From the IMG/VR virus record IMGVR_UViG_3300031707_000181, positions 1-23,296 of that record: DNA of 23,296 nucleotides, one strand, 5' to 3'. A program made the translations under genes and the position numbers. This document shows, in pieces, positions 4,911-21,574 of the stretch; within the stretch, counting starts at the first letter, position 1; the number at the start of each line of letters is the position of its first letter. The notes below the pieces were generated by a model. It ran no database searches, had not been told where the DNA came from, and worked only from the letters and a program-made list of their open reading frames with translations. The DNA is from a virus.

Positions 4911-4915
4911 TATCA

Positions 4916-5110
4916 GTGCCGCAGATGGAACCAATTTACTTGGACCGGCTCAAGAAGAAACAGATGGAGTATGCCATAGCCTCGCTGAAAACACCGTCAG
5001 ACCGGACTGAGTTCGGTTATGGTCAAGCGAGTGGGGTGTACCAAGGTTTGTTAATCGCCGAGCAGCTGTTCGAGGAAGTAATAGGAGAAGACCGTGACGG
5101 GACAAAGTAG
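4916..5110 (+). CDS. Small conserved phage protein (64 aa)
   Basis: The start is taken as GTG 4916 because GGAGG at 4903-4907 lies eight bases upstream. An in-frame TTG at 4883 has poorer support and ATG 4925 has no comparable site. The 64-residue product has a helical N-terminus with a KKKQMEYA stretch, a central segment ending in TEFGYGQASGVYQGLL and an acidic C-terminus. I recall similar small proteins near portal genes in environmental phages, none with a known role. Its end overlaps the co-chaperonin gene by 17 bases, and that gene's ribosome binding site lies within its coding sequence. Confidence 0.7.
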   Translation: MPQMEPIYLDRLKKKQMEYAIASLKTPSDRTEFGYGQASGVYQGLLIAEQLFEEVIGEDRDGTK

Positions 5111-5528
5111 TTCGATTGTCAAGCCTGAGTTCAACTACGGTCATCTAGGGGAGGCTTTCCCGGAGATAGACCCTGGACTCAAGCCTTACGGGTCTCGGAT
5201 CCTGGTTCAGATCCGGACGCCGAAGACACGGACGAAATCGGGTCTCTACGTTCCTGAAGAAACCCGGCAAACTGAGCTTTGGAACACTCAGGTGGCTAAA
5301 GTCATTGCTCTTGGACCTGTCGCTTTCAAGAATCGAGACACTCTTGAGACCTGGCCTGAGGGACGTTGGTGTGAGGTCGGAACTTTCGTGCGATGCCCCA
5401 AGTATGGTGGCGACCGCTGGGAGGTTCCGGTCTCCGATTCTGCACGAGCTCTCTTTGTACTTTTCAACGATCTAGACATTATTGGCGAGGTTACTATCAA
5501 CCCGCTTGATGTTGTCGCCTTTCTGTAG
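5094..5528 (+). CDS. GroES-like co-chaperonin (Cpn10 fold)
   Basis: The start is GTG 5094, with AGGAGA (5083-5088) five bases upstream. The 144-residue product has the layout of the 10-kDa chaperonin family. A strand PYGSRILVQI (31-40) is followed by a charged flexible stretch and SGLYVP (49-54), which aligns with the GGIVL end of the GroES mobile loop that docks into GroEL. Next come VAKVIALGP (67-75), a pocket of G and V residues in the GTFVRCPKYGG region, and LFNDLDIIGEV (123-133) at the end. About 30 extra residues precede the core. Known phage relatives such as T4 gp31 replace GroES so that host GroEL can fold the capsid protein. The location between portal and scaffold fits that role. 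No GroEL partner is in the window, and the client protein is inferred. Confidence 0.85.
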   Translation: MTGQSSSIVKPEFNYGHLGEAFPEIDPGLKPYGSRILVQIRTPKTRTKSGLYVPEETRQTELWNTQVAKVIALGPVAFKNRDTLETWPEGRWCEVGTFVRCPKYGGDRWEVPVSDSARALFVLFNDLDIIGEVTINPLDVVAFL

Positions 5529-5544
5529 ACTGTAGGAGTCAAAC

Positions 5545-6543
5545 ATGGCAGAAGCAAACGAGAAAGATGACGATCTGGTAGCCATTGCTGATGATGGTCA
5601 TCCCGTACCTGAGGATGAGACCACGGGGATAGTAACAAAACCTGATGAGGATGACGATGAGGAGGAAGACGAGGGCGAAGAGGAGCAACGTCTAGGTGCC
5701 TCAGAGGAAGACGAGGACCGCGGAGAACTACGCGGCAAACGCAAAGAAGAACGTCATGATCGTCGCTCCCGTCAGAAACAGGCACGAGAGCGCGACCAGA
5801 AAGAACTGGGGTTCCTTCGAGCTCGGAATGAGTCCTTAGAGCGACGCTTCAGCACCCTTGATAGTCGAGTTACGGGAAGCGAAGTATCGTCTATCGACCA
5901 AGCGATCAATTCGGTCAAAGGCAATCTACTGACCGCCGACCAAGTTATCTCGAGGGCTATCGCAGCGGGTAAAGGTGAGGATGCCGTCGAGGCCATGCGA
6001 ATTCGGGATGGTCTGCGGGATCGATTTACCCAATTAACCCAAGCCAAACAGGCCGTGACTAAACGTGGCGACGGTTCTGAACCTGATCCCGCCCTGATTA
6101 GTCATGCCAAAGCTTGGACTAAGAGCCACAGCTGGTGGGACCCCAAAGGTGGTGATGAAGATTCCCTGGTAGTTTCGGCCATCGATACCGCTTTGGTGAA
6201 CGAAGGTCTAGATCCGAAGACCTCGGATTATTGGGATGAGCTTTCCAAGCGCGTTGCTAAACGGTTGCCTCATCGGGCGGCTAAGGGCCAACGTCGCGAA
6301 GTGGAAGAAGAGGAAGAAAACGACAACGTCGGCAATCAACGCGAAGGTAACAACGGGAAAGCCCGTGGAGGCCCTCGCTTTAGGACTGGCGGTCGTGAAC
6401 GCCCCTTGAAGAAAAATGAGGTTTACATCTCAGCCGAGCGCAAAGACGCGATGGTTGAGGCGGGAGTCTGGGATGATCCTCAACTGCGGCAGCGCTACTT
6501 GAAACAGTATGCGCAATATGACCGTGATCACTCGAACGCTTAA
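5545..6543 (+). CDS. Putative capsid scaffolding protein
   Basis: AGGAG (5534-5538) sits six bases before ATG 5545. The 332-residue product begins with a strongly acidic, disordered region (residues 1-60, with a run of Asp/Glu near 31-47). A basic and coiled-coil stretch follows (about 60-125), then a helical middle, and a Gly/Arg-rich segment near 265-290 leads into a C-terminus with a basic cluster. Acidic, helical proteins encoded just before the capsid gene are typical scaffolds, which fill the prohead during assembly and leave before packaging ends. No protease motif is seen. The call rests on composition and position more than on a sequence family. Confidence 0.68.
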   Translation: MAEANEKDDDLVAIADDGHPVPEDETTGIVTKPDEDDDEEEDEGEEEQRLGASEEDEDRGELRGKRKEERHDRRSRQKQARERDQKELGFLRARNESLERRFSTLDSRVTGSEVSSIDQAINSVKGNLLTADQVISRAIAAGKGEDAVEAMRIRDGLRDRFTQLTQAKQAVTKRGDGSEPDPALISHAKAWTKSHSWWDPKGGDEDSLVVSAIDTALVNEGLDPKTSDYWDELSKRVAKRLPHRAAKGQRREVEEEEENDNVGNQREGNNGKARGGPRFRTGGRERPLKKNEVYISAERKDAMVEAGVWDDPQLRQRYLKQYAQYDRDHSNA

Positions 6544-6569
6544 CAGTTCACTGAGAAGAGAGAGCTAAC

Positions 6570-7148
6570 ATGGCCCGAATAAAAACTGAGAACACGAGAC
6601 TGAGTCGTTCCGAAGGAAAAGCACGTGAATCACGGGGCATGGCTGACCGGCCTGTTACCGAGAACCGCGAGCTAACTGATAATGAGCGCTTGAAAGAGTT
6701 TCGTAAGTCTTTCTTCCAATCGGCACTTCCCGACTTGCCCCGAATCGAAGGGTGGCATGTCTGTTGGCTGACTACGACGAATCCTCGAGACCCTATCCAC
6801 GGCCGTATGAGGCTGGGGTATGAACCGATCAAAGCTGTTGACATACCGGGCTGGGAGCATGCCGCTCAGAAGTCTGGTGAATGGGCCGGTTGTATCGGTG
6901 TTAATGAGATGTTAGCTTTCAAGCTTCCCATGGACCTTTATGAAGCGTACATGAAAGAAGCTCATCACACTCAGCCCTTGGCTGAAGAGGGGAAGCTGGA
7001 CCAGGCTCGAGAAAGCGCCGAGGCGATGGCAGCCACAATGGCACGCCGTCCGATCAGTTTTCAACTTGAAGAAGGCAATGCCGACTTGGGTCGAGCACCA
7101 GAGCCTCCGTCCTTCGCGGTCACCCTCGGTGAACGTGACGAGGATTGA
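6570..7148 (+). CDS. Conserved head-region protein of unknown function
   Basis: The 192-residue product starts at ATG 6570 behind a purine-rich GAGAAGAGAGAG stretch that is only a fair ribosome binding site. After a basic N-terminal tail (1-50), a folded core has WHVCWLTTTNPRDPIHGRM near residues 62-80, then RLGYEPIKA and an IPGWEH segment. A Glu/Ala-rich helix follows from about 125 to 155. I recall relatives between the scaffold and capsid genes of environmental phages, with no established job. Its position suggests a head assembly or minor capsid role, which is inference. Confidence 0.65.
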   Translation: MARIKTENTRLSRSEGKARESRGMADRPVTENRELTDNERLKEFRKSFFQSALPDLPRIEGWHVCWLTTTNPRDPIHGRMRLGYEPIKAVDIPGWEHAAQKSGEWAGCIGVNEMLAFKLPMDLYEAYMKEAHHTQPLAEEGKLDQARESAEAMAATMARRPISFQLEEGNADLGRAPEPPSFAVTLGERDED

Positions 7149-7186
7149 GACTCTAATCAATCAATTGTTCATTTTGGAGTTTTAAC

Positions 7187-7738
7187 ATGAGTTCAGTCGC
7201 TTCTCCGTTTGGGTTGAAGCCGGCATGGCACCCCTCTGGTATCCTGCGCCAGCAACAAGGGACGATCATCTCGGGTCTTGCTGTCAACATTTTCCAGTTC
7301 TCTCCGGTTCAAATTGACACCACTGGCGGGCTACTGGGTGCCGTTGTTGGCACTCGGGCCGTGGGCTCGTTCATGGGTGTGGAGTTCACGGATGCGGAAG
7401 GTCGTCGCCGTGTTTCCAACCGCTGGCTGGCCAACACAGTCGCAACGGACATTGTTGCGTACTACACGGCCGACCCTTTGATGGTGTATGAGATCCAGGG
7501 TAATGCTCCGATCACTCTGTTGCGTGTTGGCGAACAGATGGATTGGAGTGCGCTGGCGGGAAATGCCACCACGGGTCTCTCGTCCGTTGCTTTGAACGTG
7601 GCCTCTTCGGCAGCCAACGCTGGTCTCCGAGTCATCGGCCTGAACCCCGGCCCTGATAATATCTTCGGTGATGCTTTCACCGTGGTTCAGGTTCAAATCT
7701 CAGAGCATCAGTTCGTCGCAGACGTTGCGGCTATCTGA
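7187..7738 (+). CDS. Small virion protein, possible capsid decoration protein
   Basis: TGGAG (7175-7179) lies seven bases before ATG 7187. The 183-residue product opens with ASPFGLKPAWHPSG, a pattern I associate with small head proteins found just before the capsid gene in environmental phages. It is rich in Gly, Ala, Val and Thr, with alternating hydrophobic residues suggesting beta structure, and has no membrane segment or catalytic motif. Size and place fit a decoration or capsid-stabilising protein. No specific family can be assigned with certainty from sequence alone. Confidence 0.6.
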   Translation: MSSVASPFGLKPAWHPSGILRQQQGTIISGLAVNIFQFSPVQIDTTGGLLGAVVGTRAVGSFMGVEFTDAEGRRRVSNRWLANTVATDIVAYYTADPLMVYEIQGNAPITLLRVGEQMDWSALAGNATTGLSSVALNVASSAANAGLRVIGLNPGPDNIFGDAFTVVQVQISEHQFVADVAAI

Positions 7739-7770
7739 CGCCTGATCAACCGATTTAATAGGAGCTTTCA

Positions 7771-8700
7771 ATGGCTGTTCCAATGAGGTCTACTGACTTC
7801 CGCTCGATTGTCGAGCCCATCATGAACGAGAGTTTTGACGGGATCTACAAGCAGCGGGCTGATGAGTGGAAAGGCGTGTTCACCGAAAGAACCGGCATTC
7901 CACGAAATTACCACGAAGAACCCGTGCTGTTCGGATTCGGGGCTGCTCCGGAGTTGCCTGATGGCACCCCGGTCACCTACGATGCTGGCGGCGTGCTGTT
8001 CATCCAACGGTACGTGTACAAGGTCTTCGGTCTTGCCTTTGCCCTGACGAAAGTCTTGGTTGAGGATGGCGATCACATCAAGATCGGTACGATCTACTCT
8101 GAGCATTTGGCTCAGTCGATGATCGAGACGAAAGAGACCCTGTGTGCCAACATCTTGAACCGCTCCTTTAACGGTGCTTTCGTAGGTGGCGATGGTGTTG
8201 CTCTGAATGTCATCAACCATCCTATCGCTCCGGGCGGTTCTGCTGGTGGCGTATTCTCCAATCTGTTGACCACTCCGGCAGCTCTGTCCCAAACGAGTCT
8301 TGAGCAGATGCTCATTCAAATCCGAAACGCTGTTGACAACAACGGCAAACGGATTCGTCTGACTCCGCGGAAGATCGTGGCAGGTCCGAGTCAGGTGTTC
8401 CAGGCAGAAGTTCTGCTGAAGAGCGTGCTTCGAGCTGGTACCGCCAACAACGACATCAACCCAGTCAAGTCGATGGGCTTGCTGTCTGACGGGCAGGCTA
8501 ACCTGTCGCGTATCACCAGCACCACAGCATGGTGGGTCCAGACGGACGCACCGCGCGGTATGCAGCTGATGAAGCGACGGGGCCTTGAGAAGTCGATGGA
8601 AGGCGATTTCGAGACCGATTCGATGCGCTATAAGTCGACTGAGCGGTATATCCCGAGCTGGACGGATCCTCGGACCCTTTACGGCACCCCGGGACTGTAA
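7771..8700 (+). CDS. Major capsid protein (HK97-fold type)
   Basis: The product of 309 residues builds the icosahedral shell. A good AGGAG (7760-7764) stands six bases before ATG 7771. The N-terminal part holds an FDGIYKQRADEWKGVF helix, and residues 90-130 hold ALTKVLVEDGDHIKIG and SEHLAQSMIETKETL, a spine-like helix region. RKIVAGPSQVFQAEVLLKS (near 193-211) resembles the A-domain segment of HK97-fold capsid proteins, and the order scaffold, small head protein, capsid is standard. The length is close to that of Mu-type gpT capsid proteins. No N-terminal delta domain is evident, in keeping with a separate scaffold. A strong hairpin follows the gene, as is common after highly expressed capsid genes. 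Confidence 0.85.
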   Translation: MAVPMRSTDFRSIVEPIMNESFDGIYKQRADEWKGVFTERTGIPRNYHEEPVLFGFGAAPELPDGTPVTYDAGGVLFIQRYVYKVFGLAFALTKVLVEDGDHIKIGTIYSEHLAQSMIETKETLCANILNRSFNGAFVGGDGVALNVINHPIAPGGSAGGVFSNLLTTPAALSQTSLEQMLIQIRNAVDNNGKRIRLTPRKIVAGPSQVFQAEVLLKSVLRAGTANNDINPVKSMGLLSDGQANLSRITSTTAWWVQTDAPRGMQLMKRRGLEKSMEGDFETDSMRYKSTERYIPSWTDPRTLYGTPGL

Positions 8701-8721
8701 CGGTCACGTCACAATGAGATA

Positions 8722-8750
8722 GGGGGCGGGCTCATTAGGAGCCCTCCCCT
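8722..8750 (+). terminator. Strong hairpin downstream of the capsid gene
   Basis: Six pairs GGGCTC/GAGCCC (8728-8733 with 8739-8744) close a five-base ATTAG loop. After one C-T mismatch (8727/8745), four G-C pairs and a terminal G-T pair extend the stem to 8722/8750. No T run follows immediately; the nearest is TTTTT at 8767-8771, after the next ribosome binding site. It may act as a leaky terminator or as a block to 3' RNA decay that keeps capsid message abundant relative to downstream genes. Confidence 0.6.
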
Positions 8751-8773
8751 CACTCACACAGGAGAATTTTTCG

Positions 8774-9487
8774 ATGTCCATCAATAATGTCTCTCGTTTC
8801 CCGATCGGGTTGAACAACCTGGCGGACAACGACCCATTGGCCAACATCATTCTGGAAGATCGCACTCGGATGCATTCCTTCCTGGAAGATTTTGACCTTT
8901 TCCTGGCGACGATGTGGACCGTGGGGGGTGTTGGTACTCCGACACGTGCTTTGGCAGCTGGTGATGGTGGAATTCTTTCCATCAGCAATTCAGCAGCCAA
9001 CGCTGACAACTCGTGGATCCAAGGGTCGATTGGCTACACTTCTGTAGCAACTAAGCGCTTGTTCTTTCGCGCTCGGGCTCCAGTTGACGATGCCTCTCTG
9101 GCCGTTGCTGCTCTGGGGCTGCAAATTGCTGTAGCTGCCAACAACTTCCTGACTCCGGTGAACGGCATCTTCTTCCTGAAGGCTGCCGCTCAGACGGGCA
9201 TTGTCCTGCGCAATGCGGCGGCATCAGTCAACACTGACTCGGTGTCGTTGGGTACGGTGGTTTCAGGTCAGCAATTCGAAGTGGCGTTCTCTCTGGATAC
9301 CGGGGCGAACATCATGGCAATTGCGTTTCAACCGAACACAGCGAACGGCCCAGCTCAAGTCGTCGCTACCATCACACCAGCGGCCCTGCCTGCTGTGGCG
9401 ATGGGCGTGGTTGCTGGTTGTCAGAATGGTTCGGCTGTTATTCGGACCATGCTGCTTGATCAGATCTTCGCTGCCAAAGAGAGGTGA
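8774..9487 (+). CDS. Putative virion structural protein (237 aa)
   Basis: GGAG (8761-8764) precedes ATG 8774 by nine bases. After an N-terminal segment (1-50) the 237-residue protein is rich in Ala, Val, Thr and Asn, with alternating hydrophobics that suggest a beta-sandwich of about 170 residues. There is no catalytic motif, signal peptide or membrane helix. It follows the capsid gene and precedes another small beta-type protein, so it is probably a head decoration or vertex protein. The pattern is familiar from environmental phage genomes, but no named function comes with it. Confidence 0.6.
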   Translation: MSINNVSRFPIGLNNLADNDPLANIILEDRTRMHSFLEDFDLFLATMWTVGGVGTPTRALAAGDGGILSISNSAANADNSWIQGSIGYTSVATKRLFFRARAPVDDASLAVAALGLQIAVAANNFLTPVNGIFFLKAAAQTGIVLRNAAASVNTDSVSLGTVVSGQQFEVAFSLDTGANIMAIAFQPNTANGPAQVVATITPAALPAVAMGVVAGCQNGSAVIRTMLLDQIFAAKER

Positions 9488-9490
9488 GTC

Positions 9491-9811
9491 ATGCGCCCAG
9501 TACGTGTTGTTGTTGCGGCTGTTGCAGTTAGTTCGGTTATACCGATTGACCAATATCTCGGGCCGACTAATATCGGGCTGGGCGTTGTCATCACCACTGG
9601 CCCGGCCACCTATACGGTAGAGCATACGTTTGATAACATTTGGGATCCTTTGGTAACGCCCGTGTGGTTTCCTCATCCAACGTTGGTTGCGCAAACGACT
9701 AACAAAGACTCAAACTATGCTGCGCCTCCCCGGGCGGTGCGACTGAATGTGACAGCTTTCACAGCTGGCAGTGTGGCTCTGACTCTGGTTCAAGCTGGTG
9801 CCGTAGGATAA
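9491..9811 (+). CDS. Small putative structural protein (106 aa)
   Basis: ATG 9491 is preceded by GAGGTGAG (9481-9488), which also contains the stop of the previous gene. The 106-residue protein contains a core with IDQYLGPTNIGLGV near residues 19-32 and TYTVEHTFDNIW near 40-51. It ends with a short strand-rich segment, VALTLVQAGA. This pattern recurs in small structural proteins of environmental phages. The high beta content and tight linkage to the preceding gene suggest the two act together on the particle. Function is not known. Confidence 0.62.
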   Translation: MRPVRVVVAAVAVSSVIPIDQYLGPTNIGLGVVITTGPATYTVEHTFDNIWDPLVTPVWFPHPTLVAQTTNKDSNYAAPPRAVRLNVTAFTAGSVALTLVQAGAVG

Positions 9812-9823
9812 AGGGAGAAGCCG

Positions 9824-10372
9824 ATGGGTATGGTAGCCGGAGTTAGTGACAACGATCCTCTTGAGACTGTCCGAATGATGCTGGCTGATCCGAAGGGATT
9901 GCAGCAAAAACTCGATCAACTCAAAGAGGCCCAAAACCAAGCTCAAGCCGTGCTTGACCTAGTCGGTCCAGCCAGGGAGATTTTGAAGCTTCGTGAAGAG
10001 GCTAATCGACTCAGAGAGAAAGCGGACTCAATACTTCTTTTGGCTCAGAGGGAGGCTGATTCTCTCAAAGCTCAGGCTCAGGACGAGATGAGGAAAATGG
10101 TCGCTTTGACTAATCAAAAGGCTCGAGATCAGGAAGCTGAGCTTAAGTTGGTTGAGGTTGAGAAGAAAGAGCTTAAAGCCCAAACTCAAGTGGCGTTAGG
10201 TCGAGCCAAACGGCTCGAGGCTGATGCTGCTGATGAATTGAAGAAAGTACTCAATTCTGCCAAAGTACTTGAGGAAGCTCAAAAGGCGACTGATCTCAAA
10301 CAGGACGAGCTGGACCAACGACTCGGTCAGCTGGAGAAAGCACAAGCTTCCCTGAAGCTTTTGTTGGGGTAG
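9824..10372 (+). CDS. Coiled-coil protein (182 aa)
   Basis: GGGAG (9813-9817) is six bases before ATG 9824. From about residue 24 nearly to the end the 182-residue protein is one long charged helix, rich in Lys, Glu, Ala, Leu and Gln, with heptad-like spacing. No membrane segment, metal site or enzyme motif is present. It directly precedes a fibre-like gene whose GTG start lies three bases after its stop. It could be a rod-shaped virion part, a fibre trimerisation or assembly helper, or a minor scaffold. Coiled coils match many families by composition, so no closer call is justified. Confidence 0.6.
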   Translation: MGMVAGVSDNDPLETVRMMLADPKGLQQKLDQLKEAQNQAQAVLDLVGPAREILKLREEANRLREKADSILLLAQREADSLKAQAQDEMRKMVALTNQKARDQEAELKLVEVEKKELKAQTQVALGRAKRLEADAADELKKVLNSAKVLEEAQKATDLKQDELDQRLGQLEKAQASLKLLLG

Positions 10373-10375
10373 TAC

Positions 10376-11569
10376 GTGGCCATTCCCAGTGGTATGGGCT
10401 ATGCGGGGATAGTTGCTATCCCCATTCCCGACGATGGGACCACCGGCCAAGTTTTGACCAAGAGCACCAATGCTGATTACGACATGCAGTGGGCTGCCGG
10501 TGGTGGCGGTGGTTCCGTTGCAGATGGTGATTATGTAGACATCACCGTCTCTGGTGTCGGTACCATTTGGACTATTGATCCCGGCGTTGTCACTTACGCC
10601 AAGATGCAAAATATCTCTGGACCCTCCCTGTTACTAGGGCGAGGTGACTCGGGGGCGGGTGTTGTACAGGAGATCTCTCTCGGTACGAACCTAGCGATGG
10701 TCGGCACTGTGCTGAATGCTGTTGGTGCTGGTGCCTCGGTTGATGGTTCCTGGAGATTCAGCACCTCTACCGTAGCGGCTGATCCCGGAAATCGGAACTT
10801 CAGGTTGGACAACGCGACACTCGCTAGTGTCACGGCGATTTACATCAACGACACGACTGTCAACGGCTTCGATGCGAGCACGATTCTAGGATTTCTGCGA
10901 GCCGGGAACCGAATCTACATTCAGCAAAAGAACGATGCTACTCGTGCGGCATTGTTCCTGGTGACGGGAACTGCGACTGACAACATCGGCTGGTGGACTG
11001 TTCCGGTTACGACGATTCTCGATGGCGGTGTGCTGTACCAGAACAACGCGGAGTGTGGCTTCGTCCTGCTCCTGTCAGCTGGGGTTGTAACTGACGCTGA
11101 CTATGGCGACATCACGGTCTCCGCTGCTGGAACGCTCTGGACCATCGACAACGATGTAGTGACCTACGCGAAGATGCAGAACGTGTCTGCTGCGTCTTTA
11201 CTGTTGGGGAGAGGATCAGCGGGGGGTGCTGGAGATCCGCAGGAGATTACTCTAGGAACCAACCTGAGCATGGCCGGGACTACCCTGAACGCCGCTGCGG
11301 GTGGGGGTGGCACGATCACGCAAGTCACTGCTACTTTGCCTTACCCCGCGCAACGATCAAATGTGATCAACATCATTGATGCCACGATGGCCGCTACAGA
11401 TAAGATTCTGGTGACGCTGGCGGGTGTTGCAGATACTCAAGCTAACGCAGGATTCATCGAAGTCTTGTATCTGGCTGCCGTAGCCAAAGCGGGTTCGTTT
11501 GATCTTGTCATAGAGACTAGGGTACCCGAGGGTGGCCCAGTCGTTATCAATTACTCAAGGGCCGCTTAG
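10376..11569 (+). CDS. Modular tail-fibre-like protein (397 aa)
   Basis: The start is GTG 10376, with GGGG at 10365-10368 as a weak ribosome binding site; ATG 10394 would trim six residues. An N-terminal GQVLTKSTNADYDMQWA (25-41) is a motif common in phage fibres. Two related modules at about 50-115 and 239-305 both read D(I)TVS..GT.WTID..VVTYAKMQN, then a LLLGRG and an LGTNL.M.GT.LNA segment. They enclose a different domain (about 122-235) with a WRFSTSTVAADPGNRNFRLD opening. The last 80 residues form a separate beta-type end domain. The two copies differ at many synonymous sites, so the duplication is old. The likely role is host binding or particle decoration. Confidence 0.75.
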   Translation: MAIPSGMGYAGIVAIPIPDDGTTGQVLTKSTNADYDMQWAAGGGGGSVADGDYVDITVSGVGTIWTIDPGVVTYAKMQNISGPSLLLGRGDSGAGVVQEISLGTNLAMVGTVLNAVGAGASVDGSWRFSTSTVAADPGNRNFRLDNATLASVTAIYINDTTVNGFDASTILGFLRAGNRIYIQQKNDATRAALFLVTGTATDNIGWWTVPVTTILDGGVLYQNNAECGFVLLLSAGVVTDADYGDITVSAAGTLWTIDNDVVTYAKMQNVSAASLLLGRGSAGGAGDPQEITLGTNLSMAGTTLNAAAGGGGTITQVTATLPYPAQRSNVINIIDATMAATDKILVTLAGVADTQANAGFIEVLYLAAVAKAGSFDLVIETRVPEGGPVVINYSRAA

Positions 11570-12379: not shown

Positions 12380-12402
12380 CAACTTTTTTAAGGAGAAGGA
12401 TG

Positions 12403-13242
12403 ATGACGGTCAAGTACGTCGATAGTTTCGAGTTCCCAGTCGAAGCAGGCTTTACGGGTTCGGCCTCTAACCGTCCTACCACGGCCGTTCGAGGATATGA
12501 GCGAAAGCGACCAGGACTGCATGAAGAGATGCTGACTCAGGGAAAGCGTTTGGGCTTCAAAGAGGGCGGTCAAGTCAAGATGGCCGATATGGATAATGCC
12601 TTGACTCAACGGGGCAAGTCTGTGGCTTCGAATAAGCTTGATCAGGAGTTCGGGGATCAAGGCCCTCTTAAGCCAGGCTACCGCAAGGGCGGGAAAATCA
12701 AGAATTTCAACAAGCATGATCGAGATGTCGTTGACAAGAAGATGTCAAAAAAGATCGGGAAAGGCGATGAAGTCTACGGCACTGCCAAGCCTCAAGGCAA
12801 GAACTTTGCTGAAGGAGGCAGCGTAGACAGCGATGAGATAAAAGAACTCCGACGGCAGCTTGGAGCCAACTTCACCGAGCTTGAAGCCAAGCGCCTTCTG
12901 TCTGAGCGACGAAAAGGGGGCAGTCTGGGCAGCGTAGACAGCGATGAGATAAAAGAACTCCGACGGCAGCTTGGAGCCAACTTCACCGAGCTTGAAGCCA
13001 AGCGCCTTCTGTCTGAGCGACGAAAAGGGGGCAGTCTGGGCATCAAACCAATCAATAAGCGCGTGGGTGGACCCGTCGCCGCGAAGAAGGGAGGTTTGAC
13101 TCAGGCTCAGGACATGAAGCAGGATGTTAAAACTGCCAAGCGTGTGGCTGACCAAGAAATCGGTAAGCATGTTCGGTCTCCCGCACCTAAGGGTCATGGA
13201 ATCAAAGTACATAGCGGAAAGCCGATGTTCGGGAAGGACTAA
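12403..13242 (+). CDS. Gly/Lys-rich protein with an exact internal duplication
   Basis: Two adjacent ATGs lie at 12400 and 12403 behind AGGAGAAGGA (12391-12400). The second has better spacing, seven bases from GGAG, and is used here. The 279-residue basic protein carries scattered KGG/EGG motifs (FKEGGQVK, YRKGGKIK, FAEGGSV, RRKGGSLG twice, KKGGLTQ) in an otherwise polar, probably disordered chain. Residues 140-176 and 177-213 are identical 37-residue units, each with a helical IKELRRQLG ... LEAKRLLSERR segment. The repeated Gly-Gly motifs with basic flanks resemble those in other phage structural proteins and may be sites that dock onto another protein or DNA. No function is known. It lies just before a putative tail adaptor gene. 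Confidence 0.7.
   Translation: MTVKYVDSFEFPVEAGFTGSASNRPTTAVRGYERKRPGLHEEMLTQGKRLGFKEGGQVKMADMDNALTQRGKSVASNKLDQEFGDQGPLKPGYRKGGKIKNFNKHDRDVVDKKMSKKIGKGDEVYGTAKPQGKNFAEGGSVDSDEIKELRRQLGANFTELEAKRLLSERRKGGSLGSVDSDEIKELRRQLGANFTELEAKRLLSERRKGGSLGIKPINKRVGGPVAAKKGGLTQAQDMKQDVKTAKRVADQEIGKHVRSPAPKGHGIKVHSGKPMFGKD
12817..13042 (+). repeat. Perfect 111-bp tandem duplication inside a gene
   Basis: Positions 12817-12927 and 12928-13038 are identical base for base, and the match continues four bases further to 13042. The unit is 111 bp, or 37 codons, so the frame is kept. Absence of even synonymous differences implies a very recent event. An assembly artefact is possible but less likely because both edges are clean and in frame. 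Confidence 0.95.
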
Positions 13243-13245
13243 GTT

Positions 13246-14301
13246 ATGGCGACCAGTGGGACAGTCTCGACAACGGTCTTTACGACTCAGAAGGTCATTG
13301 ACCATGCCTTTCGGCGTTGTCGGCTAACGCCTCAGCAAGTGACGTCTGAGCATATTCAGACGGCCCTTGACTTGCTGTTTCTTCTTCTCTCTACCTTGGT
13401 AAGTAAAGGGATTAAGCTGTGGAATATCGAGAAGATTATCCTACCTCTATATGAGGAAGAGTACTCGGTAGTCACACCTTTAGGTGTTGTTGATATGTTC
13501 AACTGTAACCTGAGGGTGTCACAGCGAGTTACGGGAACTGCCACCTCTACTGAAGGATTGGCCGATAACGCCTTTGATGGTGATGTGTTCACAACTTGTA
13601 CTCAGACCCTGGCTGCCGGATCCATTACGATGCAGCTGCCCTCAGCCATAGCTGTTCCTCAATTTGGTATCCTGCCGAATGTCTCGGGGTCTTGGGATTT
13701 CTCTTTCCAATACTCCGAGGACAGTATCACTTGGGTTAATATCTTTACAAGGACCGCTGTCGCCGCGGTGGCCGGTAACTGGCTCTGGTATGATGCCGAG
13801 GGAGTCACCTCGCACCTTTACTACAGACTACAGGCCAATGGCACGACTATTCTCGATGTCGCCGAGCTCGTTTACCAGAACCTACCTTCCGAGGTACCTT
13901 TGGCTAAGCTCAATCGGGATGACTACGCAAATCTCCCCAACAAAACCTTTACTGGTCGGCCCACTCAGTTCTGGTGGGATAAACAACGATCCCAGTCAGT
14001 TATTACCCTGTGGCCCTCAGTTTCGTACCAGTTCACTTTCGCTCAATTGGTCTGTTTCGTACAGACCTACATTGAAGATGTTGGCACGATGAGTCAAGAG
14101 ATCGAAGTGCCCCAAAGGTGGTACCTGGCCATTGTGACTGGTCTTGCGGCCCAATTAGCTCGTGAGATTAAGGAAGTTGATCCCTCCATGATCCCTATTG
14201 TAGCTGTTGATGCAGCCTCCGAGCTCAGCATCGCCTGGGACGGTGAGAGTGATGGTTCGGTGGCGAAATTGATGCCTAATATCTCTCCTTACACGAGGTA
14301 G
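13246..14301 (+). CDS. Putative head-tail adaptor with discoidin-like insert
   Basis: AAGGA (13234-13238) precedes ATG 13246. The N-terminal part (residues 12-85) has the helical layout AL..LF.LLSTLVSKGIKLW.IEK, followed by a strand and loop, as in short-tail adaptor proteins (P22 gp4 or T7 gp11 type). Residues about 98-205 look like an inserted beta-sandwich of the F5/8 type C (discoidin, galactose-binding-like) class: LADNAFDGD (106-113), DFSFQYSEDSITWVNI (151-166) and YYRLQANG. The adaptor pattern resumes with LNRDDYANLPNKTFTGRPTQ (222-241) and ITLWPS, ending in a helical tail. A discoidin-like domain would sit on the outside of the tail and could bind sugars. The adaptor call is by resemblance, not a proven family match. 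Confidence 0.65.
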   Translation: MATSGTVSTTVFTTQKVIDHAFRRCRLTPQQVTSEHIQTALDLLFLLLSTLVSKGIKLWNIEKIILPLYEEEYSVVTPLGVVDMFNCNLRVSQRVTGTATSTEGLADNAFDGDVFTTCTQTLAAGSITMQLPSAIAVPQFGILPNVSGSWDFSFQYSEDSITWVNIFTRTAVAAVAGNWLWYDAEGVTSHLYYRLQANGTTILDVAELVYQNLPSEVPLAKLNRDDYANLPNKTFTGRPTQFWWDKQRSQSVITLWPSVSYQFTFAQLVCFVQTYIEDVGTMSQEIEVPQRWYLAIVTGLAAQLAREIKEVDPSMIPIVAVDAASELSIAWDGESDGSVAKLMPNISPYTR

Positions 14302-14304
14302 GTG

Positions 14305-14640
14305 ATGGCAATTTTCATAGATCCGACGGGGCGTGGCACTTACGGCATTGGGCTTTGTGCTAGGTGCAGTCGGAAATTTTCCATCGAGGATCTTTACTCA
14401 GACCCTAACTCCCCGGGTTTGAAGGTTTGTCGTGCTGACTTAGATGACTATGATCCCTATCGACTTCCAGCTCGACAAACTGAGGATATCACCCTCAGGT
14501 TTACGCGACCTGATGTGGCTCTCGACTCTGGTGGCCCGATCCCCAACATTATTGGACTTTTTGGGATTCGAGTTACTGAGAATGGGAACTTACGAACTAC
14601 CATCAATGGCTCATTGAGAGTTATCTCACCGGCTCCTTGA
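14305..14640 (+). CDS. Small zinc-ribbon-like phage protein (111 aa)
   Basis: ATG 14305 is chosen over GTG 14302 because GAGG (14295-14298) lies six bases before it. The 111-residue protein has CARC (Cys18, Cys21) and a third Cys at VCRADLD (Cys42). A fourth ligand could be Asp45, since no fourth Cys or His sits at the expected place. The core reads RKFSIEDLYSDPN ... YDPYRLPARQ, then a Pro/Arg-rich tail ending in beta-type sequence. I recall relatives of this core near tail fibre genes of environmental phages. The role is unknown; a small metal-stabilised connector or fibre-attachment part is possible. Its stop TGA adjoins the ribosome binding site of the large fibre gene. Confidence 0.68.
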   Translation: MAIFIDPTGRGTYGIGLCARCSRKFSIEDLYSDPNSPGLKVCRADLDDYDPYRLPARQTEDITLRFTRPDVALDSGGPIPNIIGLFGIRVTENGNLRTTINGSLRVISPAP

Positions 14641-14649
14641 GGATATAGC

Positions 14650-17600
14650 ATGACCAATGTCACGATTCCCCAGCTTCCTCCAGCGGTAACGCCTTTGGCG
14701 CCGGCTGATCTGTTTGAGGTAGTTCAAACTATCTCTGGAGTACTAACCAGCAGAAAGGTTTCTGCAGCCGATCTCACCGGGGGAGGCGGAACTCAAGCCA
14801 CTTTGATTTTGACCGACACTAACCCCGTTGACCTAGTTGATGTTAGTAATGCTCTTAATTTGGGAGGTCTGGTTCCTACAACCGACCCTCACTTGGCTTT
14901 CTCGGCGGCTATTGTTCAAGCCAAGGCGAATATCAACACGGCTGCTCCTTTAAGTATTAACCCTTTCGGTGGTCAGGTTCAGATGGGCGATCAGCTCGTA
15001 GTAACCGCCGCTGGTACGGTTTTTCAGCAACCGTTTTGGACGGCCAATACTGTCCTCACTATTCAAGCGGCTCAGGCCTCGATGTTCCAATCAGTGGAGC
15101 ATTGGAATATCACTGCTACCGGGCCTGTCTACATTACCAATAAGAGCCGGGGAGCCACTCTTGGCGCTCAAGCTTTGGTTCAGTTAAACGACAGTCTCTA
15201 CACTGAACAGTATCGGGGTAGCGATGGAGTTCAATTTCTTCAATTTGCTAACTTCGAAGCACTGGTCGATGGGGCGGCGGCACTCAACAATACTCCGGGA
15301 CGTTTGGTCTTTCGAACGACTCCAGTTGGAGGGATTAGCCCGCTTGAGCGTTTGAGGATGAGTTCTACAGGTCAGCTTGTTGTAACGGCCAATGGCGCGG
15401 CCTATGTCAGCACGCCTAAACAAGTAATAGGTGTGACACCTGTGACGGTTTGGCAAGGCGCGGCTAACCAAACGATCCTTACCATTGATCATTTTACGGC
15501 CGATCCTAACCCCGGGCAGTTCATCTTTCGTAAGTCGCGTGGAGCGACGCTCAGTGTCTATACGATCGTGCAATCGGGTGATCAGTTAGGTTCTCTCCAG
15601 TTTCATGGGTCGACTGGCACTGACTACACTCCCGCTGCTGAGATCCGTGGCGAAGTCGATGGTACTCCCGGTGCTGGTACGGATATGCCTGGCCGACTCG
15701 TGTTCCTTACCTCACCCGATGGTTCGGCGACTCCAGCTGAGGGGTATCGCGTTACTAACCTGGGTAATTTAGTCTCAACGGGAAGAACTGCTGCTTATGG
15801 CACGCCTGTCACGTTCAGTGCAGTTGTCCCCCAGCTGACGGTTCAGGCACAGACAGCTGCTGGCATCGCAAGTGTTAGACACTCTGCCGACGCTGGTGGT
15901 GCGTTCATGTTCTTGGGAAAAAGTCGCAATGCGACCTATGGAGGCCAAACCATAGTGCAAAACGCCGATGGCATCGGCACGATTGATTTTCGTGGCTCTG
16001 ACGGCGTTGCTATGATTCAGCTCGCCACCATCACGGCGTTCAGTGATGGGGTTCCGGGTGTCAACGATATGCCTGGTCGATTAAGCATTCACACAACCCC
16101 AGACGGTGCGGTTTCAGCACTTGAGCGGTTGCGTATCAATAACGCGGGTAAGGTCTTCCTCACGGGTGACGGTGCGACCTTTGCCCCACCCATCACGAGT
16201 CTCGATTATGGCCTAGCTATTCAAGCTACGCTCAGTGCTTCGCTGCTTCAAACCCTGTACACCTCGGGCTCTAGCGGTCCTCAGCACATGTTGGCTCATA
16301 GCGGGTCGAACACCTTAGGTGCTAACGCAATCCTTACCGATGGCGACACTCTGGGTCAACTCGCGTTCGGTGGCTACGACGGTACGACTGCCAACATCCT
16401 GACAGGGGCGCGCATTAACTCGGAGGTTGTTGGTGCCGTCGCAGTAGGCCAATTGCCGACAGCCTTGATAATTCACACCCGTGCGATTGGAGATGCTGCA
16501 ACTTTCGAGAGAGCGCGATTCAACCCTGCTGGTCGATTCTTGCTGACCAACGACAACACCAGCACAGCACCACCCCCCACGTTGGCGACTGTGGTGCCGT
16601 TTGTAGCTGCTCAAGCTGTGAACTCAGTCGTGCCCATTATTGCAGTTTACAAGCACTCAGCCGATGCACTTTCTGGCGCGTTGGCTATGGTCAAGACACG
16701 GGGTACTGTAGCCGGTGCTACAACAGTCGTTCAGCTTAATGACTCTCTGGGCAGTGTGCAGTGGTGGGCTCCCATCGGGGGCACAATGGATCTGGGGGGC
16801 TACATCGAGGGGATTGTCGATGTTGCTCCTGCCACTACGATCTCAGCACGAATCTCAACTTGGACGGCACCTTCGGGGGGCGATCCTCTGGAACGACTGA
16901 GAATTCAGGCTAATGGTCAGAACGTCATTATGGGAGGTGGGACGGCGTATGGTGTCCCGCCCACTTTCGGAGGCTTGCTCCCCGCCTCTGTTGTAATGGC
17001 GCAAGGCGGAAGTGGTATAGCCAATGTCGGTTATAACGCCACCCCGACTGGTGCCACGCTGTACATGGCGAAGTCCAGATCTACGATCTATGGCAACAAC
17101 GCCACAGTCAATACTGACGACACCGTAGGGGCTATCGAATTTTTCGGCAATGATGGCGCTGCGATGATTCAGCTCGCGACCATCAAGGGAGTGGTTGAGG
17201 CAACCCCCGGCGCGAATGACATGCCTGGTCGATTGGTGTTCAGCACCACACCTGATGGGACGACTGCCTCTGTTGAGCGTATGCGCATTCTCCAAAACGG
17301 AATGGTCTCAATCCTAATCTCGGGTTTCGCTTACGGCAACGCTCCGAACCCTGTAGAGAGTGCCATCGCCGGAATCGTGATCCAGGGTGTTGGCCCCTCT
17401 GTCGCTCTTGATCATTACACCAACAGTGCGACGGGTCCCGTGTACGCATTGCGTAAGTCACGTGGCACAACGGCGAGTTCATACACGATCGTTCAGCTCA
17501 ACGACATTCTTGGTTCGATTAACTGGTACGGGGCCAACGGCTCTGACATCACTAACATAGCGGCACAGATTCAGGCAGCCAGTGATGCCACCCCTGGTGC

Positions 17601-18168
17601 CGCCGATATGCCTGGCCGACTGATGTTCTTGACCACGCCTAACGGTACGGTCACACCTGTTGAGCGCATGCGAATCTCTGAGGATGGTTTCATAACCTTC
17701 CCCAGCGCAGGAACGGGGATCATTGGCAAGATCACCTCGGCTGATGTAACACGAACTAATACGACTACTCTGGCTGACGATGCCACATTGACCTTTACCG
17801 TCTTAGCCGCAGCCAGTGCTACTGTCAGGTATTCTTTCGAGTGTTTGCTTGACTTCACTAACGCGGCAGCGACCGCCGATGTGAAGTTGGACTTCACCGT
17901 CCCTGGTGATACGTACATGTACTATGCCGAGTGGATTGGGTCGGCCGGTTCAACAGGCTCGGCTCGACTCATCGGGGGAGCCTCTTCGACTCTTACAACC
18001 ATCGCCATTGCCGCGGGGGAGTCTGTTGCTGTCCATATCTCGGGAACCGCCAACCTAGGGGCAAGCACTGGTGCCTTTGCGTTACAATGGGCTCAGAACA
18101 CCCTTGACGCGGTAAACGGTACTACCCTGTCAAACGGTTCTTGGATGCGCTGGAAACGACTGGCTTAA
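14650..18168 (+). CDS. Large tail fibre protein with seven repeated modules
   Basis: GAGGA (14639-14643) precedes ATG 14650. The 1172-residue product opens with a fibre-type N-terminus (IPQLPPAVTPLAPADLF, 6-22) that likely anchors it to the particle. Seven modules of about 128 residues then follow, starting near residues 165, 295, 424, 550, 682, 808 and 936. Each has a KSRG-type start, an IVQ..D.LG segment, a G.DG segment, usually a DMPGRL and a TTPDG motif, and an ERLRI end. The last 145 residues form a different beta domain ending in GSWMRWKRLA, probably the receptor-binding tip. Modules 4 and 5 have lost DMPGRL. The protein most likely binds the host surface. Fibre class is secure; the receptor is unknown. 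Confidence 0.85.
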   Translation: MTNVTIPQLPPAVTPLAPADLFEVVQTISGVLTSRKVSAADLTGGGGTQATLILTDTNPVDLVDVSNALNLGGLVPTTDPHLAFSAAIVQAKANINTAAPLSINPFGGQVQMGDQLVVTAAGTVFQQPFWTANTVLTIQAAQASMFQSVEHWNITATGPVYITNKSRGATLGAQALVQLNDSLYTEQYRGSDGVQFLQFANFEALVDGAAALNNTPGRLVFRTTPVGGISPLERLRMSSTGQLVVTANGAAYVSTPKQVIGVTPVTVWQGAANQTILTIDHFTADPNPGQFIFRKSRGATLSVYTIVQSGDQLGSLQFHGSTGTDYTPAAEIRGEVDGTPGAGTDMPGRLVFLTSPDGSATPAEGYRVTNLGNLVSTGRTAAYGTPVTFSAVVPQLTVQAQTAAGIASVRHSADAGGAFMFLGKSRNATYGGQTIVQNADGIGTIDFRGSDGVAMIQLATITAFSDGVPGVNDMPGRLSIHTTPDGAVSALERLRINNAGKVFLTGDGATFAPPITSLDYGLAIQATLSASLLQTLYTSGSSGPQHMLAHSGSNTLGANAILTDGDTLGQLAFGGYDGTTANILTGARINSEVVGAVAVGQLPTALIIHTRAIGDAATFERARFNPAGRFLLTNDNTSTAPPPTLATVVPFVAAQAVNSVVPIIAVYKHSADALSGALAMVKTRGTVAGATTVVQLNDSLGSVQWWAPIGGTMDLGGYIEGIVDVAPATTISARISTWTAPSGGDPLERLRIQANGQNVIMGGGTAYGVPPTFGGLLPASVVMAQGGSGIANVGYNATPTGATLYMAKSRSTIYGNNATVNTDDTVGAIEFFGNDGAAMIQLATIKGVVEATPGANDMPGRLVFSTTPDGTTASVERMRILQNGMVSILISGFAYGNAPNPVESAIAGIVIQGVGPSVALDHYTNSATGPVYALRKSRGTTASSYTIVQLNDILGSINWYGANGSDITNIAAQIQAASDATPGAADMPGRLMFLTTPNGTVTPVERMRISEDGFITFPSAGTGIIGKITSADVTRTNTTTLADDATLTFTVLAAASATVRYSFECLLDFTNAAATADVKLDFTVPGDTYMYYAEWIGSAGSTGSARLIGGASSTLTTIAIAAGESVAVHISGTANLGASTGAFALQWAQNTLDAVNGTTLSNGSWMRWKRLA
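15142..17700 (+). repeat. Seven diverged fibre modules (about 385 bp each)
   Basis: Module starts (KSRG-like motif) are at about 15142, 15532, 15919, 16297, 16693, 17071 and 17455, so spacing is 378-396 bases. Copies are diverged in DNA except for a close match between parts of modules 3 and 6. The seventh ends with its ERMRI segment near 17680. Confidence 0.85.
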
Positions 18169-18191
18169 CCACAGATTAATTTTCACCAACG

Positions 18192-18204
18192 AGCCTAGGA
18201 GGCT
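18192..18204 (+). promoter_or_regulatory. Small palindrome carrying a ribosome binding site
   Basis: AGCCT (18192-18196) and AGGCT (18200-18204) form a five-pair stem with a three-base loop. The ribosome binding site AGGAGG (18197-18202) for the gene at 18208 spans loop and stem. The stem is short, so any masking of the site would be weak. This may be chance. Confidence 0.35.
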
Positions 18205-18207
18205 AAG

Positions 18208-18447
18208 ATGCAACAGCAACAGCAACAGCAAGTCAATCTCTCCCAACAGCAGGTCCAGCAGGCGGCCGCGGCCGGAGCTGAGCTCCTGGAGGATCCAACG
18301 CTTCGGGTACCTATGCCCTTGGCTTTGGGTCAGCTGGGGACTCTCAAGACTCTTCTTTTGGCCATCGCTACGGGAAAATTAATCCTCGCAGTCCCGCCTG
18401 AGGAGAAGCCCCAGTTGAAGATGGTCGAGGGAGATGCTAGTGCCTGA
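18208..18447 (+). CDS. Small Gln-rich protein (79 aa)
   Basis: AGGAGG (18197-18202) lies five bases before ATG 18208. The 79 residues begin with seven Gln in a row encoded by alternating CAA/CAG codons, then a Gln/Ala segment. A hydrophobic helical part LPLALGQLGTLKTLLLAIATGKLIL-like (about 37-61) follows, with a charged end. The CAA/CAG tract may be prone to copy-number change. The hydrophobic part is long enough for a membrane segment, but it contains Gly, Lys and Gln and could as well be an amphipathic helix. It overlaps the next gene by 14 bases. No family is recognised; it may belong to the same small group of lysis candidates. Confidence 0.6.
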   Translation: MQQQQQQQVNLSQQQVQQAAAAGAELLEDPTLRVPMPLALGQLGTLKTLLLAIATGKLILAVPPEEKPQLKMVEGDASA

Positions 18448-18736
18448 TGAGCTCTGGAAACTCCTGATTCAACTGCCCATTGTTGCAGTTGTAGTCTGGG
18501 TAGTGCTCAGATTGCTTCATCAAGCCACGGCCGAGCGAGCGGTATTTATGACGGCCATGTCTGAGCAATCTCGGCTTTTCACCGCCGAGCTCAAGGCGGA
18601 GCGAGAGAGTCGAGAAGCCACAGTGAGACAAACCATGGCTAGTCTTACCGAGCTTTCAACAGCCATCACTGAGCTGAGAAGTGAGGTAAGACTTAGTCAT
18701 GCAACTCAACAACGAGTGGGAACTTCTCCAAAATGA
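18434..18736 (+). CDS. One-helix membrane protein with coiled coil (holin or spanin candidate)
   Basis: The frame has ATG 18434 and, two codons on, GTG 18440. The upstream AGGGAG (18428-18433) suits the GTG better by spacing, so the true start may be 18440. The 100-residue product has one membrane helix (about residues 10-28, LIQLPIVAVVVWVVLRLL), then a charged helical region (30-90) rich in Glu, Arg, Ala and Ser. This layout suits a small phage holin-like or inner-membrane spanin-like protein. It overlaps the DUF5675-type gene by the ATGA pattern. The role is inferred from layout only. Confidence 0.6.
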   Translation: MLVPDELWKLLIQLPIVAVVVWVVLRLLHQATAERAVFMTAMSEQSRLFTAELKAERESREATVRQTMASLTELSTAITELRSEVRLSHATQQRVGTSPK

Positions 18737-19221
18737 ATGTTACCCTCCTCAGACACAGCTACTCCAAGTTCGAGACTGAGGGGTCTTTGAGTGTGGCTAG
18801 TCTAAAGCTTTTCACCATGGAACGTCCTTGGATCCCGGGGGTTGAGCTGGGGGGTAGCCCATTTCTTTCCTGTGTCCCCGACGGGGAGTATACTCTCTCT
18901 CCTTGGGTTCGTCCGGGCGGGGCTGAGGTTTATATTCTCGAGAATCCCGAGTTAGGCGTTTGGAAACAAGAAGAGGACCGACCCGACGGTCATGGAAGAT
19001 ACCTTATTCTGATCCACACTGGCAATTTTGTTTCCGATGTAGTTGGTTGTATAGCCCCAGGGATCAGTCATGGGATGTTGCTAAGTAACAAGACGGGTCG
19101 AATGGAACGAGCGGTAACAGGGAGTGCTGGAGCTATGCAGAGACTCAAGATTGAGCTCGGTAGACAAGAGATCCACCATCTGACAATTACCCCTTCAACA
19201 GGGGCGAGGGGAGTTCGATAA
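18733..19221 (+). CDS. DUF5675-type protein, possible cell-wall enzyme
   Basis: ATG 18733 overlaps the previous stop (ATGA). The 162-residue product matches the DUF5675 pattern: LFTMERPWIPG (26-36), a SCVPDGEYTL segment (46-55), then LILIHTGNFVSDVVGCIAPG (91-110) with His95, Asn98, Asp102 and Cys106. The spaced His and Gly-Cys recall L,D-transpeptidase-like active sites, but I have not verified any shared fold or activity. No canonical endolysin (lysozyme, amidase or muramidase motif) is in the window. With a one-helix membrane protein just upstream, it could serve host lysis, or cell-wall opening at infection. The family assignment is fairly sure; the role is inference. Confidence 0.72.
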   Translation: MNVTLLRHSYSKFETEGSLSVASLKLFTMERPWIPGVELGGSPFLSCVPDGEYTLSPWVRPGGAEVYILENPELGVWKQEEDRPDGHGRYLILIHTGNFVSDVVGCIAPGISHGMLLSNKTGRMERAVTGSAGAMQRLKIELGRQEIHHLTITPSTGARGVR

Positions 19222-19865
19222 TGGCCACCGCGATGACCTACACCTCTCTTGTCCAAGACTTGCAGCAGTACTTGGAACGGGGGACTCCTGATGACCCCAC
19301 AGTATTTGACCAATTGCCCAGACTCATTAACCTGGCTGAGCGAAGTATCGCCACTGAGTTGAAAATTCTGGGCTTCATCAATGTGGTGACTTCAACCCTG
19401 ACTGCTGGGGTCTCAGTATACGCCAAACCTACACGTTGGCGCGAAACTGTGAGCATCAATTTTGGCTTGGGGGCTAGTCAGGTGCGAACACCTCTTTTCC
19501 CCCGGAGCTATGAGTATTGTCGTTCTTATTGGCCTGATGAGGACATTCAGGGACAGCCGTTGTTCTATTCTGACTATGACTACAACAACTGGTTGATTGC
19601 CCCCACCCCGAATGCGAACATGCCATTTGAGGCGATCTACTACCAGCTGCTACCTTTACTGGACGCTGTGAATCAGACCAACTGGCTGACCGATTTCGCA
19701 CCTAATCTACTACTGCATGGGACTCTCCTGAAGTGTACTCCATTCCTGAAGAACGATGAAAGGATCCCAACTTGGCAGACTCTTTACGCGACCGATTTGC
19801 AAGCCTTTAACACCCAGGACTTAGGCAGGATTATTGATCGCACTACTTCGAGGCAAGAAGCATGA
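19221..19865 (+). CDS. Phage adaptor protein (SU10/T7 gp11-like)
   Basis: ATG 19221 overlaps the previous TAA by one base. The 214-residue protein has the family layout of short-tail adaptors. An N-terminal YTSLVQDLQQYLERG (7-21) is followed by LPRLINLAERSIATELKILG (32-51). A beta part with YAKPTRWRE and a SYEYCRSYWP segment comes next, then APTPNANMPFEAIYYQLLP (about 126-144), TNWLTDFAPNLLLHGTLL (153-170) and a C-terminal helix. In this class a ring of adaptors sits below the portal and holds the nozzle. I associate it with the adaptor family of phage SU10. The next genes are a fibre-like and a nozzle-like protein, which supports the call. Confidence 0.75.
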   Translation: MATAMTYTSLVQDLQQYLERGTPDDPTVFDQLPRLINLAERSIATELKILGFINVVTSTLTAGVSVYAKPTRWRETVSINFGLGASQVRTPLFPRSYEYCRSYWPDEDIQGQPLFYSDYDYNNWLIAPTPNANMPFEAIYYQLLPLLDAVNQTNWLTDFAPNLLLHGTLLKCTPFLKNDERIPTWQTLYATDLQAFNTQDLGRIIDRTTSRQEA

Positions 19866-21574
19866 GCTATACAGATGTCTTTGGGGGAGCTACTCTCTAC
19901 CCAGTCGGTCAGAGCTACCTTAGTCTGGTCTTCGCCACTGACCAGACGCTTGAATGGCCTCTGGAGCAACAGAGCAGCAACATTGTCGCCAGCATCATGG
20001 ACCTCAGCGCCACAGTCCCTGGGCTGAATGTGATTCTAACCGACGCCAGGCAGGTTTCTACGGGGATTCAAGCAGTATTCAACAATGTCGGTGCGAACAC
20101 GTACACCGTCAAAGACTCAGTAGGAGGAACGATCATAGCCCCGGCTCCTGGGACTGCCTGGGTCGCTTATCTCACGGATAACTCTACCGCGGCCGGATCT
20201 TGGAGAACCTTTCAATTAGGGGCAACAGTTTCAGTAGCCTCAGCTGCAGCTTTGGCAGGTGCTGGAATCAAGGCGATCTCAACTACTCTAAATCAGAAAA
20301 TTGAGCCCTCGTCTAAAGCCTCAACTCCCTTTACGATCGTGGATGCCGATCGAGCCAAAGGGCTGATCTATACCGCTGGTGTAGGCGTAGCGAATCTGAC
20401 GGCCGCAGCCACGTTGGGGTCAGACTGGTTCGTCCTACTGAGGAATAGTGGGTCAGGCGATTTAGTGGTCACTCCTCCGGCCGGATTGATTGATGGCTCA
20501 GCCACCAAGACCGTTTCTCCCGGTGAGTCATGTATCATCTTCACTGACGGGGCCAATTTCTATACAGTTGGATTCGGTCAGTCAAGCACTAGTGTCTTCG
20601 ACTACATTTCCATTGCCGTGCCTGGCTCGGGAGACTACACACTCTCGGGGGTTGAGTTAAATCGAATCTCTTACAACTTCACCGGAATCTTAACGGGGAA
20701 TCGGAACATTGTCGTTCCTGCCTCAGTTCAGCAGTACTGGGTAAGCAATCAGACCACAGGGGCTTTTACTTTGTCGGTCAAGGTCGCTGCTCAAGTAGGG
20801 CCTCCAAGTATCCTCCAAACCGATCGAGCGATTCTTTATTGTGACGGGGCTCAAGTAGTGAATGCGAGTTCATCTACCGTGGTATTCCCCATCTCAATCA
20901 GCCAGGGGGGGACGGGGGCTATCACGGCAGCTGCTGCTGTCACGGCCTTGGGGGCTGTGCCAACTACTCGAGCCATTACTGCTGGATCTGGCATGGCTGG
21001 CGGGGGGGATTTGTCTGCTAATCGTACCCTGACTTTGGATATCAATAGTCTGACGACTGACACCACTCCTGATTTCGCGGCTGACTTCGTTCCCACTTTT
21101 GACGTTAGTGCCGCGGCCAATAAGAAGGTGTTGCTGGAGACGATCCAACCCACCACTCTGAAAACCTTGCAGGATACTGATTTCAGTTTCAGCAACCAAG
21201 GAACAGATCAAACGATCACGGGACTTACTCAGGCCTTGTTAGCAGCAAAGAACTACTTGATCGAGTTCGCGGTTCGAATTGTTACTGCCTCCAGTGGTTA
21301 CTCATTCTCGTGGGATCCTCCTGCCGGGTCAGGTCTGACAGGGTTTGGTTCTCGAGCGGGGTCGGCCAATCCCCTGCAATTGGCCTCAACCGGGGCTTCA
21401 GATGTGATTGACTCCCAGACAGCAGCAGCGAGAGACGCCTGGATTACGGGCTGTGTCTACTACAATCCCTCGTCTGATGGAAATTTGATCTTTACTGTGA
21501 AGCAATCCACGGTTGATGTCAATTCAGCCGTAGTAGCCGGGTCCAGTTGGTCACGAGCGACGATTGTAGCATAA
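19862..21574 (+). CDS. Fibre-like tail protein (570 aa)
   Basis: ATG 19862 overlaps the adaptor stop (ATGA). The N-terminal 120 residues, beginning MSYTDVFGGATLYPVGQSYL, resemble a conserved attachment domain found in tail proteins next to adaptor genes. A stretch near 345-435 carries common fibre motifs: ISQGGTGAITAAAAVTALGA, SGMAGGGDLSANRTLTLD, then DFVPTFDVSAAANKKVLLE. The last 135 residues form a beta domain ending in SSWSRATIVA, similar in layout to the tip of the large fibre at 14650. The protein likely anchors or forms a tail spike or fibre at the nozzle. Receptor and enzyme function are not evident. Confidence 0.75.
   Translation: MSYTDVFGGATLYPVGQSYLSLVFATDQTLEWPLEQQSSNIVASIMDLSATVPGLNVILTDARQVSTGIQAVFNNVGANTYTVKDSVGGTIIAPAPGTAWVAYLTDNSTAAGSWRTFQLGATVSVASAAALAGAGIKAISTTLNQKIEPSSKASTPFTIVDADRAKGLIYTAGVGVANLTAAATLGSDWFVLLRNSGSGDLVVTPPAGLIDGSATKTVSPGESCIIFTDGANFYTVGFGQSSTSVFDYISIAVPGSGDYTLSGVELNRISYNFTGILTGNRNIVVPASVQQYWVSNQTTGAFTLSVKVAAQVGPPSILQTDRAILYCDGAQVVNASSSTVVFPISISQGGTGAITAAAAVTALGAVPTTRAITAGSGMAGGGDLSANRTLTLDINSLTTDTTPDFAADFVPTFDVSAAANKKVLLETIQPTTLKTLQDTDFSFSNQGTDQTITGLTQALLAAKNYLIEFAVRIVTASSGYSFSWDPPAGSGLTGFGSRAGSANPLQLASTGASDVIDSQTAAARDAWITGCVYYNPSSDGNLIFTVKQSTVDVNSAVVAGSSWSRATIVA

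Follow-up and report, generated by a model that had tools for sequence, protein, structure and literature searches.

In phage T4, segmental amplification is driven by microhomologies of 6-10 bp, and at dmd-tifA whole genes are amplified for dosage as tandem copies, with joints in short microhomologies and a rapid rise in the phage population (PMC9391042). In crAss-like phages, a protein encoded near the tail genes grows by duplication of BACON, a known carbohydrate-binding-type domain, and the tandem arrays are built by sequential duplication (PMC6949934). In the case of lambda, the tail assembly chaperone is made as gpG and gpGT, a short protein and a form carrying a C-terminal domain through a -1 frameshift near the gene end, beside the tail genes and next to the tape measure (PMC5009743). 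The locus described here, situated in a window of 23,296 nucleotides (the whole stretch analysed, IMG/VR record IMGVR_UViG_3300031707_000181), resembles each of these systems in part.

The repeat array and its gene

The features of the locus are as follows.

12400-13242, + strand: Gly/Lys-rich gene, an ORF of 280 aa, with a pI of about 10 and a net charge of about +21
12415-12465, + strand: conserved N-terminal motif YV.DFEFP...GFTGSA, in the window YVDSFEFPVEAGFTGSA, defined by invariant columns across 18 members
12817-12820, + strand: GGCA microhomology at the left end of the array, recurring at 12928-12931 and 13039-13042
12817-12927, + strand: repeat unit 1, 37 codons (GSVDSDEIKELRRQLGANFTELEAKRLLSERRKGGSL), a predicted helix hairpin of residues 144-154 and 160-172 (pLDDT about 80)
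12928-13038, + strand: repeat unit 2, equal to unit 1 at every base, a predicted hairpin of residues 181-191 and 197-209 (pLDDT about 68); contig L002 has one unit only
13099-13200, + strand: C-terminal domain TQAQD...KHVRSPAPKGHG, fused in frame in the window; 17 distinct relatives encode it in the -1 frame
13246-14301, + strand: tail-adaptor-like gene, 3 bp downstream of the Gly/Lys-rich gene (PHROG 12985, unknown function)
Unit-unit junction in the two-unit form: GGCAGTCTGGGCAGCGTAGAC
One-unit passage: upstream flank, one unit, then GGCATCAAACC

The original prediction had placed a perfect, in-frame 111-bp tandem duplication at 12817-13042, and Tandem Repeats Finder reported exactly this array as the only one in the window, with a period of 111, 2.0 copies, 100% matches and no indels. 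The array of 226 bp consists of 2 x 111 bp and the 4-bp GGCA, which opens each unit and comes again after the second. The copies are adjacent and in register, as in a VNTR, and both units lie in frame within the ORF, encoding 37 identical residues each. A perfect adjacent repeat of 111 bp cannot be the work of chance; a chance or low-complexity origin was ruled out, the unit being perfect and unique in the window. The base identity of the units had also been set against the diverged repeats of the fibre genes, a contrast that holds: the fibre-like gene at 14650-18168 does contain four copies of a 60-nt repeat at 15682-17664, the other three being 62-75% identical to the reference copy. These copies are spaced by 384, 1152 and 387 bp. 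Elsewhere in the window, the protein predicted from 10376-11569 has, by eye in translation, two similar internal blocks in which YAKMQN.S..SLLLGRG... is repeated.

In 1.18 Mb of comparison loci, mostly relatives and partly redundant, only two arrays were found at a period of at least 30 and a match of at least 85%, and neither is perfect. One, of 39 bp and 2.1 copies (93%), is located at 6596-6677 of L046; the other, of 60 bp and 2.8 copies (92%), is located at 312-481 of L118, within a different Gly/Lys-rich ORF that lies close to the adaptor homologue.

In the structure model of the 280-aa protein, weak overall with a mean pLDDT of 58, order is found mainly in the two hairpins and a C-terminal helix, and the remainder is mostly of low confidence. 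Each repeat unit is predicted to form a two-helix hairpin between Gly linkers. Scans of Pfam and PHROGs, together with a scan of the unit alone, gave no match above the cut-off for the window protein, and annotated phages gave no match by DNA search with the gene or protein search with its product. The description of the product as an unknown Gly/Lys-rich protein is therefore right, yet a definable family exists.

Besides this gene, the window encodes a terminase, a portal, a major capsid protein and one virion structural protein, and the nearest cultured capsid relatives found are the Caulobacter phages GB2A, RW, RLK and KcrB (80% identity). The product of the adaptor-like gene is 36% identical to the 'tail adaptor' of MW202545 and 42% identical to Caulobacter phage proteins; its structure model is too poor for a fold search (pLDDT 40). 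An adaptor homologue is present in 30 of the 39 related records, in most of them with a Gly/Lys/Arg-rich ORF just upstream. Among the genes examined around the adaptor homologue of Caulobacter phage RLK, one of the closest cultured relatives found, there is no clear counterpart to the window gene. In Pelagibacter phage HTVC023P (L124, 7007-8197), several small Lys/Gly-rich genes lie directly 5' of an adaptor-like gene, alike in composition alone. A scan of prokaryote genomes matched one contig, in an uncultured Reyranella MAG, which is no evidence of a host.

A modular protein family upstream of the tail adaptor

A profile scan recovered 43 loci, in all of which the gene is situated 0-146 bp upstream of an adaptor homologue. 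The members, 92-529 aa long, are basic Gly/Lys proteins that are for the most part disordered, and the window gene belongs to them by its N-terminal motif and the 3-bp gap to its adaptor homologue. The ends are partly conserved, namely the N-terminal YV.DFEFP...GFTGSA, with Y6, V7, F10, F12, P13, G17, F18, G20 and S21 invariant in 18 members, and, in many, the C-terminal KHVRSP.PKGHG; the middle expands and contracts by whole modules. The 92-aa form in L129 consists of both ends with almost no middle. No Pfam or PHROG match extends along the length of the members scanned; a small domain, DUF6496 (PF20106), is carried by two members, L152 and L155, and the window protein has no match to it.

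An internal duplication signal (z>4) is present in 7 of 30 relatives, against none of 30 adaptor proteins, and in the window protein the signal is abolished by removing one unit. Two relatives contain tandem copies spaced by 168 bp with 75-80% DNA identity. In close phage pairs with adaptor identities of 99.2% and 97.0%, the Gly/Lys gene differs by 24 bp and 75 bp, respectively; other identical-adaptor pairs from different contigs have no length change in this gene, so length changes are not constant. This is an unnamed family of fast-changing, modular basic proteins, and comparison of its members shows module gain and loss as its mode of evolution.

Copy-number variation in the repeat

A very recent expansion, possibly copy-variable within the population, had been proposed, and comparison with related genomes bears it out. 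The only other IMG/VR contig found with the repeat unit, L002 (IMGVR_UViG_3300032053_000494), is identical to the window at 100% over 10,297 bp (its bases 85-10381 equal window 13000-23296, to the window's end), and it holds one unit between the same upstream (12 bp) and downstream flanks. Copy number thus differs between otherwise identical genomes, as in a VNTR. The lack of any difference in about 10.3 kb would place the divergence below about 0.03% (95%), so the unit number changed too recently for base divergence to resolve. A clear homologue of the 111-bp unit is absent in the relatives compared, so that the change may be either the gain or the loss of a unit.

The start of L002 is informative. 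Its bases 1-127 correspond to window 12805-12931, that is, 12 upstream bases and the 115-bp repeat (111 bp and GGCA), and the base that follows decides the path: T is the exit and G the entry into a second unit. In a published JGI pipeline, metaSPAdes is run with -k 33,55,77,99,127, the largest k being 127 (PMC11584781). The contig starts 127 nt before the allele-specific base, a distance equal to the largest k, which fits branching of a k = 127 graph with both alleles present; assuming this assembler for metagenome 3300032053, an assembly graph with the two alleles in it would produce just such a start point. These data support a unit number that varies in the phage population faster than base substitution, and the co-existence of the two forms depends on the assumed assembler. 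Two is thus the apparent number of units in the window, and more than two could be present if k was <115 in its assembly.

Perfect copies are able to expand and contract, and module number differs across the family, as would be expected if unit number were an adaptive phase variation, with selection acting either on the length of the spacer or on how many helix hairpins are present; neutral tolerance accounts for the same data, and this explanation is improbable. Tandem-repeat collapse is a common assembly error, and two fixed units with a collapsed L002 would be one such case. It is nonetheless very unlikely, given that L002 runs from 12 upstream bases through one unit into the downstream bases, and that its 128-mer exceeds the 115-bp repeat, requiring one-unit reads if k = 127. 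Least likely of all is an artefact in which the assembler walked the loop of one true unit twice: although a separate contig, beginning at the repeat, does hold the one-unit version, the inter-unit junction is confined to molecules of two or more units and has to reach the assembler in reads, k = 127 exceeds the 115-bp repeat and would resolve it directly, and the start of L002 at the 127-mer itself indicates a second path leaving there. Independently of the value of k, the junction and the one-unit passage each need reads of their own, which argues against the assembly artefact that the original prediction had kept as an alternative.

The preferred reading, which we hold to be highly probable, is a real in-frame tandem duplication of very recent date, which shares the phage population with the one-unit form and affects a hairpin module that would tolerate it. 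It most likely arose by slippage or recombination between two GGCA tetranucleotides 111 bp apart, and two perfect copies could contract again by the same route. The GGCA at the joints (P = 0.016, the chance of at least 4 bp of microhomology at a random junction) fits slippage or microhomology recombination, 4 bp being a weak signal. The duplication would be tolerated as the unit is a self-contained predicted two-helix hairpin with flexible Gly linkers in an otherwise disordered basic protein; since the joints are glycine-rich, an in-frame duplication is probably accommodated easily.

Candidate -1 frameshifting in relatives

In 17 distinct loci (L156, L149, L150, L168, L139, L158, L140, L169, L165, L162, L142, L138, L100, L101, L103, L105 and L108), the C-terminal domain is encoded in the -1 frame, and its reading frame overlaps that of the Gly/Lys part at the latter's 3' end. 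A canonical slippery heptamer, X XXY YYZ, lies within the overlap in all 17, at a distance of 21 or 6 bases upstream of the zero-frame stop; it is A AAA AAA in most, G GGA AAA in L150, and G GGA AAG in L169 and L162. Codon shuffling gives an expectation of 4.2 heptamers in 17, against the 17 observed, in loci that are related and hence not independent. The second frame of L150 is without a usual start codon. Beyond the zero-frame stop, codon positions 1, 2 and 3 of the -1 frame carry 354, 190 and 795 differences (10 loci), a pattern expected for a translated frame.

A strong stem-loop (z -3.6 to -4.5) is predicted a few bases downstream in four loci with the stop-adjacent site, and in others it is weaker or absent. 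Folded jointly as a consensus, the RNA of all 17 loci yields no strong shared structure, owing to the poor alignment between the two types of site, and the loci were folded singly instead. In the adaptor tree, these loci fall within one 22-row clade with 100/100 support, in which the other 6 rows are without the C-terminal domain. The fused window gene is located outside this clade; the three heptamers it contains are at other places, and there is no slippery site at its 3' end. In L097, the gene and its C-terminal motif share one reading frame.

Read from sequence, this arrangement suggests that relatives in one clade reach the C-terminal domain by programmed -1 frameshifting, which is absent from the window gene. 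The frameshift signal in the relatives is a stronger finding than the original duplication. On its gene position, its charge and the frameshift arrangement of its relatives, the Gly/Lys protein might tentatively be assigned as a minor virion or assembly factor acting with the adjacent tail adaptor.

Comparison with known systems

At this locus, an in-frame module duplication in a natural phage population is caught while its copies are still free of substitutions, and other members of the family show signs of older events of this kind. The comparison also uncovers a family of genes, as yet without a name, that neighbours the tail adaptor; one of its clades gives a strong frameshift signal that is open to testing. 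In annotation pipelines, such genes would be broken up or overlooked.

Like the dmd-tifA amplification of T4, the window contains tandem copies with joints in a short microhomology, but a 37-codon piece within one gene is duplicated in frame, and the homology is 4 bp. Like the BACON repeats, the window module belongs to a phage protein that is encoded near tail genes and grows by duplication; in contrast to BACON, the module is a short stretch predicted to fold as a helix hairpin, the protein around it is basic and disordered, and the copies are identical and polymorphic. Compared with lambda gpG/gpGT, the relatives of the window gene likewise combine a short protein with a C-terminal domain by a likely -1 frameshift near the gene end, beside tail genes, whereas the neighbour here is the adaptor gene, and the likeness is one of arrangement, not of sequence kinship. 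The window gene itself departs further, being fused without a frameshift and without the 3'-end slippery heptamer found in the 17 relatives. Possibly, and we put this forward as speculation, these proteins form a class of phage assembly proteins that has escaped recognition, encoded next to the tail adaptor and built on a disordered basic backbone with helix modules whose number varies and is polymorphic within populations. One clade would use programmed -1 frameshifting to fix the ratio of a short to a long form, in the manner of gpG/gpGT but with a tail-adaptor gene in place of a tape measure as neighbour.
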